From positions 1-32,232 of the forward strand of contig JACMPR010000046.1 of NCBI GenBank assembly GCA_014377385.1: a DNA stretch of 32,232 nt, written 5' to 3'. The number at the start of each line of letters is the position of its first letter. The first letter of the stretch is position 1. The DNA is from Ferruginibacter sp. Its GTDB lineage: Bacteria; Bacteroidota; Bacteroidia; Chitinophagales; Chitinophagaceae. Both the position numbers and the translations under genes were made by a program. Below are positions 2,598 to 3,380 of this stretch, piece after piece. The notes under the pieces were generated by a model. It was not told where the DNA came from. It did no database searches and saw only the letters and a program-made list of their open reading frames with translations.

Positions 2598-3236
2598 TTA
2601 ATCGATATTTGGCTGCGGTGTGTAGCGCAGGTAAGGCTTTACAATTGTTACTCCTTTTGTAAACCTTTTTTGTGCATCTTCTGTACTAACGGCCGGCACC
2701 ACAATAACATCTTCACCAGGCTTCCAGTCTGCAGGAGTTGCAACACTATATTTAGCCGTCAATTGTAATGAATCGATCACCCGCAGTACTTCGTTAAAAT
2801 TTCTACCGGTGCTTGCGGGATAGGTAAGCGATAATTTCAGTTTTTTATCCGGACCAATGATAAATAATGAACGAACAGTGAAAGTCTCTGATGCATTTGG
2901 GTGAATCATATCATATAAACCGGCTACTTTTCTATCCTCATCTGCAATGATCGGGAATTCCACGCTGCAGTTTTGTGTTTCATTGATATCGTTGCGCCAG
3001 CTTAAATGCTTATCTATACCATCAACACTCACTGCAATTACTTTCACATTGCGTTTATCGAATTCATGTTTAAGCAATGCTGTTTTACCGAGTTCAGTTG
3101 TGCATACCGGCGTATAATCGGCAGGATGGGAAAATAATACTCCCCAACCATCTGCAAGAAATTCATAAAAATCTATTTCTCCTTCCGTGGTATTGGCCGT
3201 AAAATTCGGAACTGTGTCTCCTAATCTTAAACTCAT
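2598..3236 (-). CDS. Peroxiredoxin, 1-Cys (Prx6) type
   Basis: The 212-residue protein belongs to the AhpC/TSA thioredoxin-fold family and reduces hydrogen peroxide and organic hydroperoxides. The peroxidatic motif is PVCTTE at 43-48 with Cys45, preceded by the HPADYTP strand typical of Prx6 rather than AhpC. The C-terminal extension (about 160-212: WKPGEDVIVVP, then a TPQP end) is also Prx6-like. One further Cys occurs near residue 89 (QNCSVEF) but not in the C-terminal resolving position, which agrees with a 1-Cys mechanism. There is no signal peptide, so it should be cytoplasmic. It is divergent from an Rrf2-family regulator, and a 23-bp dyad overlaps its predicted promoter, which suggests redox control by that neighbour. 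The control is inferred. Confidence 0.93.
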   Translation of the reverse strand: MSLRLGDTVPNFTANTTEGEIDFYEFLADGWGVLFSHPADYTPVCTTELGKTALLKHEFDKRNVKVIAVSVDGIDKHLSWRNDINETQNCSVEFPIIADEDRKVAGLYDMIHPNASETFTVRSLFIIGPDKKLKLSLTYPASTGRNFNEVLRVIDSLQLTAKYSVATPADWKPGEDVIVVPAVSTEDAQKRFTKGVTIVKPYLRYTPQPNID

Positions 3237-3253: not shown

Positions 3254-3261
3254 TAAAGATA
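3254..3261 (-). promoter_or_regulatory. Candidate -7 element of the peroxiredoxin promoter
   Basis: Read on the minus strand this is TATCTTTA, seven of eight matches to TAnnTTTG. It ends 18 bases before the ATG at 3236, giving a short leader. The same octamer precedes the RRM gene and the CDGSH gene in this window. Confidence 0.5.
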
Positions 3262-3262
3262 A

Positions 3263-3285
3263 TACTCTACTTAATAAGTAGACTA
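3263..3285. promoter_or_regulatory. 23-bp dyad, candidate operator for the Rrf2 regulator
   Basis: TACTCTACTTA-A-TAAGTAGACTA is an inverted repeat with 11-bp arms and one mismatched pair; its core CTACTTA-A-TAAGTAG is perfect over 15 bp. It abuts the peroxiredoxin -7 element and so sits in the -7/-33 spacer, where a bound protein would block RNA polymerase. An odd-length AT-centred dyad of 20-25 bp is the usual form of an Rrf2-family operator (IscR, NsrR, CymR). Assignment to the adjacent Rrf2 gene is inferred from position. Confidence 0.6.
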
Positions 3286-3307
3286 ATATTTTATTGATTA
3301 ATGTAAT

Positions 3308-3315
3308 TATTTTTG
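3308..3315 (+). promoter_or_regulatory. Candidate -7 element for the Rrf2 regulator gene
   Basis: TATTTTTG is a full match to the Bacteroidota -7 consensus TAnnTTTG. It lies 65 bases before the ATG at 3381. The dyad at 3263-3285 is just upstream of the region where RNA polymerase would contact DNA, so one site could serve both directions. Confidence 0.45.
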
Positions 3316-3380
3316 TAACAAGCTTGGCCGGCCGGTAAGCCGCAGAAGCTACGCTAAATACTTTTTACTATTGTACTTAT

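Follow-up and report, generated by a model that had tools for sequence, protein, structure and literature searches.

The 23-bp dyad lying between a 1-Cys peroxiredoxin gene and a divergent rrf2 gene in a Ferruginibacter sp. contig (hereafter the window, the whole stretch of 32,232 nucleotides that was analysed) is quite probably bound by the Rrf2 protein encoded next to it. As predicted from comparison of genomes, the dyad would be one member of an operator family by means of which sulfate assimilation, cysteine synthesis and a 1-Cys peroxiredoxin are repressed in Chitinophagaceae and other Bacteroidia. The regulator may be described as a putative CymR-like repressor of a sulfur/cysteine regulon with the 1-Cys peroxiredoxin Prx6 as core target, set apart from CymR by an invariant C-x8-C-x2-C-x4-C loop. 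To our knowledge, the regulation of cysteine synthesis in Bacteroidota has been little described. The analysis provides a defined operator, a regulator, a list of targets, and genomes in which the regulon is either full or reduced, making binding, cofactor and signal directly testable, and it would connect sulfur nutrition with a 1-Cys peroxiredoxin whose role is unclear.

The Prx6/rrf2 intergenic region

The peroxiredoxin has the AhpC-TSA and 1-cysPrx_C domains, the PVCTTE motif, and a single invariant cysteine, C45, among 82 Prx6 homologues. In all these features it is the same as other 1-Cys Prx6-type peroxiredoxins, from which it differs in being the predicted core target of an Rrf2 protein controlling a sulfur regulon. 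Its divergent neighbour belongs to the Rrf2 family (PF02082 at 110 bits, for a cut-off of 30). The span 3254-3315 extends from the candidate -7 octamer of the peroxiredoxin promoter, which matches five of the six fixed letters of TAnnTTTG and reads TATATTTG in most Ferruginibacter-like relatives, through that of rrf2, which is a perfect match to the consensus (Table 1).

Table 1. Coordinates of the features in and around the Prx6/rrf2 intergenic region of the window
Feature	Position	Strand	Basis
1-Cys peroxiredoxin, Prx6 type, catalytic C45; predicted core regulon target	2598..3236	-	Pfam
Candidate Bacteroidota -7 octamer of the peroxiredoxin promoter, TATCTTTA	3254..3261	-	Inferred from TAnnTTTG consensus
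Predicted operator dyad TACTCTACTTAATAAGTAGACTA	3263..3285	.	Conservation and genome-wide operator search
Conserved 21-mer core ACTCTAC TTAATAA GTAGACT	3264-3284		Within dyad 3263-3285
Candidate -7 octamer of the rrf2 promoter, TATTTTTG	3308..3315	+	Inferred from consensus
Rrf2-family regulator, 139 aa	3381..3800	+	Pfam; AlphaFold model closest to CymR
Codons of the four-cysteine loop C91-x8-C100-x2-C103-x4-C108	3651..3704	+	Invariant in orthologues

The dyad, TACTCTACTTA-A-TAAGTAGACTA, is exactly as an earlier note on this DNA had described it, with 11-bp arms, one mismatched pair and a 1-nt spacer, and it is located where the note had placed it, in the spacer upstream of the peroxiredoxin -7 octamer. 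As a single base separates it from this candidate octamer, the operator would occupy the -33/-7 region, the usual site for a repressor that excludes polymerase. We propose that an Rrf2 dimer on the dyad covers the -33/-7 spacer of the peroxiredoxin promoter and blocks RNA polymerase, and that the same dimer may in addition tune rrf2, the -7 box of which is located 23 bp past the dyad.

Palindromic shape was rejected as evidence for function. The window has eight inverted repeats of the same quality (11-bp arms, at most one mismatch, spacer of 0-7), and 20 shuffled versions have 1-13, averaging about 5.5, so that shuffled sequence gives about as many equally good ones. As a palindrome the dyad is at chance level, so that its significance comes entirely from conservation.

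The rrf2 leader contains a GC-rich stretch (GCTTGGCCGGCCGGTAAGCCGCAGAAGC, 3319-3352) that is missing in close relatives, where the spacer between Prx6 and rrf2 is shorter by about 50 bp. No significant RNA fold was found in this leader (z 0.88).

Operator conservation and co-occurrence with the Rrf2 orthologue

Searches for the divergent Prx6/Rrf2 pair yielded 38 loci, or 30 once near-identical intergenic regions are removed. Nearly all of these pairs have, in the same place, a 21-bp operator (7+7+7) of the form WNTCTAC-N7-GTAGACT, which in most cases lies 2-7 nt from the peroxiredoxin -7 box. Columns of the operator have a relative entropy of 1.00 bit each and those of either flank 0.26, and the alignment of orthologous intergenic regions, suggested earlier as a check, therefore shows a conserved dyad between diverging flanks. 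When its own and near-identical sites are excluded from training, 37 of the 38 intergenic regions score above 60 shuffles. Two loci labelled Saprospiraceae (L067, L072) carry long inverted repeats with CACATAG units in the spacer between the two genes.

For an independent test set, a weight matrix trained only on the divergent pairs was applied to Prx6 in 26 genomes where the Rrf2 orthologue and Prx6 are separated or arranged in a different order. In all but one of them (25/26, scores 9-30) the operator is found at a distance of 50-81 bp upstream of the start codon of Prx6; twenty of these positives exceed the maximum of 800 shuffles, and the other five, at 9-13.5, fall within the range of the most extreme shuffles (maximum 13.5). 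By contrast, it precedes Prx6 in none of 11 genomes without an Rrf2 orthologue (best score 4.2, for a null 99th percentile of 7.3). The difference between the two groups (Fisher p about 1e-8) is uncorrected for phylogeny, the genomes representing many genera that are not phylogenetically independent. Prx6 itself is present in all 26 genomes with the orthologue versus 11 of 32 without. Moreover, a sequence model built from the Prx6 sites was searched genome-wide. Its best E values ranged from 2.7e-4 to 0.026 among ten genomes that have the orthologue; among ten that lack it, the model gave either no match or none better than 0.14.

This co-occurrence is strong evidence, at the level of sequence, for the pairing of Rrf2 with the predicted operator, and it much strengthens the regulator-operator link that the earlier note had inferred, as the operator tracks the orthologue even where the two are unlinked. 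A different regulator might bind the dyad, with Rrf2 merely a neighbour, given that the pairing is drawn from sequence comparison; however, the operator follows the Rrf2 orthologue across 20 genera, unlinked cases included, and is gone from Prx6 where the orthologue is absent, which makes this very improbable. A chance palindrome in an AT-rich spacer would fit the abundance of equally good palindromes in shuffled sequence, but conservation and genome-wide specificity rule it out, and the co-occurrence of operator and orthologue refutes it; we give it practically no credence.

Two genomes scored as lacking the orthologue (G024, G038) still have sites near cysH. The orthologue may be missing from these drafts, since sister genomes of the same genera have it. 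Another genome without the orthologue (G011) contains one match that is a perfect palindrome, ACTCTATCAATTTGATAGAGT, and no gene begins close to it (L336, G011:C4:117572); this match reflects either chance or another Rrf2.

Target genes in relatives and in the window's genome

In relatives, the operator scan places sites before cysH, cysD, sulfite reductase, cysM and O-acetylhomoserine (OAH) sulfhydrylase, before the siroheme genes for precorrin-2 dehydrogenase and uroporphyrinogen-III methyltransferase, and before a YeiH-type transporter and TonB-dependent receptors, and the target gene families at the sites were confirmed. Across the class, Rrf2 orthologues have cysH-cysD, sulfite reductase or siroheme genes as neighbours, and sites occur close by. 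Several lineages have the order OsmC-Rrf2-Prx6-CysH with a site directly before Prx6, which is the most constant target of the operator. The sites before sulfate-assimilation genes, together with the location of Rrf2 beside cys genes, point to a CymR-like role, and peroxide defence seems to be coupled to sulfur nutrition through this regulator. The intergenic region had been proposed to form a compact peroxide- or iron-sulfur-sensing switch. As a self-contained unit this does not hold, since in relatives the operator also precedes sulfate-assimilation and cysteine genes, and what had been taken for a private peroxide switch is now better interpreted as the putative Prx6 branch of a Bacteroidia sulfur-assimilation regulon.

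Upstream of cysH and TonB-receptor genes, operators often form tandems with a separation of roughly 75-215 bp (L158, L159, L160, L162, L163, L320), and one member of such a tandem sometimes lies just inside the reading frame. General autoregulation of rrf2 was rejected because most rrf2 genes of the dapB-linked type have no operator site.

The genome of the window (G000) is a Chitinophagaceae draft of 84% estimated completeness. No cysH, cysD or sulfite reductase was found in it, for which assembly loss is possible at this completeness, or in the complete genome G067. In each of these two genomes the model detects a single operator, the one between Prx6 and Rrf2. No further regulon members were found in G000, where matches with up to three mismatches are no commoner than those of a reversed-pattern control. 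G000 appears to retain only the Prx6/Rrf2 part of the regulon. A third genome (G172) keeps Rrf2 and Prx6 with no cysH, cysD or sulfite reductase detected; its operator separates rrf2 from a divergent gene that was judged sterol-desaturase-like by inspection, and Prx6 lacks one (L013, L074).

The two genomes with a single site, both without detectable cysH, cysD and sulfite reductase, and the constancy of Prx6 as a target would suit a local peroxide switch in which the cysteines of Rrf2 sense peroxide and the dyad controls Prx6 only. However, in most relatives the operator sits at sulfate-assimilation genes and the regulator in or beside the cys cluster, and we judge such a switch improbable.

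The four-cysteine loop and its relation to known Rrf2 regulators

The earlier note had remarked on four clustered cysteines in the regulator, and these are C91, C100, C103 and C108, kept with their C-x8-C-x2-C-x4-C spacing in all 97 Rrf2 orthologues. The set differs, as the note had stated, from those of IscR and NsrR, and also from that of RirA. In the AlphaFold model (mean pLDDT 83) the winged helix is confident, and the cysteine loop, of low confidence, precedes the dimer helix. The best Foldseek match of the model is CymR (2y75, E 6e-9), followed among solved folds by Thermincola IscR, RsrR and NsrR. None of four equivalog models accepts the protein: it scores 63.3 of 195 bits for CymR (NCBIfam NF047409), 59 of 207.55 for IscR (TIGR02010), 37 of 182 for NsrR (PRK11014) and 52.6 of 193 for RirA (PRK11920).

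IscR holds its [2Fe-2S] cluster through three cysteines plus a histidine. The window's Rrf2 shares with IscR, RisR, NsrR, RirA and RsrR a winged helix and a cysteine loop before the dimer helix, but it differs from IscR-type Fe-S sensors in having four cysteines at x8-x2-x4 rather than three, in failing the equivalog cut-offs of IscR, NsrR and RirA, and in its predicted targets, which are sulfate assimilation and Prx6. Its operator is similar in length to that of ScNsrR, which is 23 bp (PMC9338935).

With CymR, the Rrf2 regulator of cysteine metabolism in Bacillus and Staphylococcus, it shares the fold, and its orthologues share a sulfur/cysteine gene regulon, as seen in the operator scan of relatives rather than in G000. 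It is nonetheless far below the CymR equivalog cut-off, belongs to another phylum, and has another operator; moreover, B. subtilis CymR has a gap where the four-cysteine loop lies. CymR of B. subtilis binds no Fe-S cluster and works with O-acetylserine thiol-lyase, and CymR of S. aureus no longer binds DNA once a cysteine has been oxidised (PMC9338935), so that cysteine and oxidation are already linked in CymR.

We propose that the Rrf2 dimer would be released from the operator when the four-cysteine loop reports sulfur or cysteine shortage, or oxidation. The loop would most likely do so through a labile Fe-S cluster, otherwise through thiols. Because the loop occupies the position in which Fe-S Rrf2 proteins carry their cluster ligands, we favour a labile cluster that would report sulfur or redox status over sensing by thiol/persulfide or by a metal, and by this analogy we put the chances of such a cluster at about even.

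The protein might also be read as a regulator of Fe-S homeostasis of the IscR/RisR kind, with Prx6 and the cys genes as secondary targets. Four invariant cysteines where IscR, NsrR and RisR have their ligands, the Fe-S nature of the cysH product and sulfite reductase, and published Fe-S Rrf2 regulators such as RisR, which uses C92, C102 and C108 (PMC9973013), are consistent with it. However, the NCBIfam equivalog cut-offs of IscR, RirA and NsrR are far from reached, and no suf or isc gene was recognised among the genes inspected at the sites, in a non-exhaustive survey; we hold this reading to be unlikely.

The sulfur-regulon reading can be taken further, although tentatively. A search of the open-licence literature found no published description of a matching Bacteroidota Rrf2 with a peroxiredoxin, cysH or CymR. 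It is quite possible, with odds a little below even, that this previously undescribed four-cysteine Rrf2 is the master repressor of sulfate assimilation in Bacteroidia, that it senses sulfur status via a labile Fe-S cluster or a persulfide at C-x8-C-x2-C-x4-C, and that the 1-Cys peroxiredoxin is its most conserved target, kept even after loss of sulfate assimilation.

The genome of the window also encodes a second Rrf2 protein (L002, G000:C340), 31% identical to the first and with its cysteines arranged as C-x6-C-x5-C.
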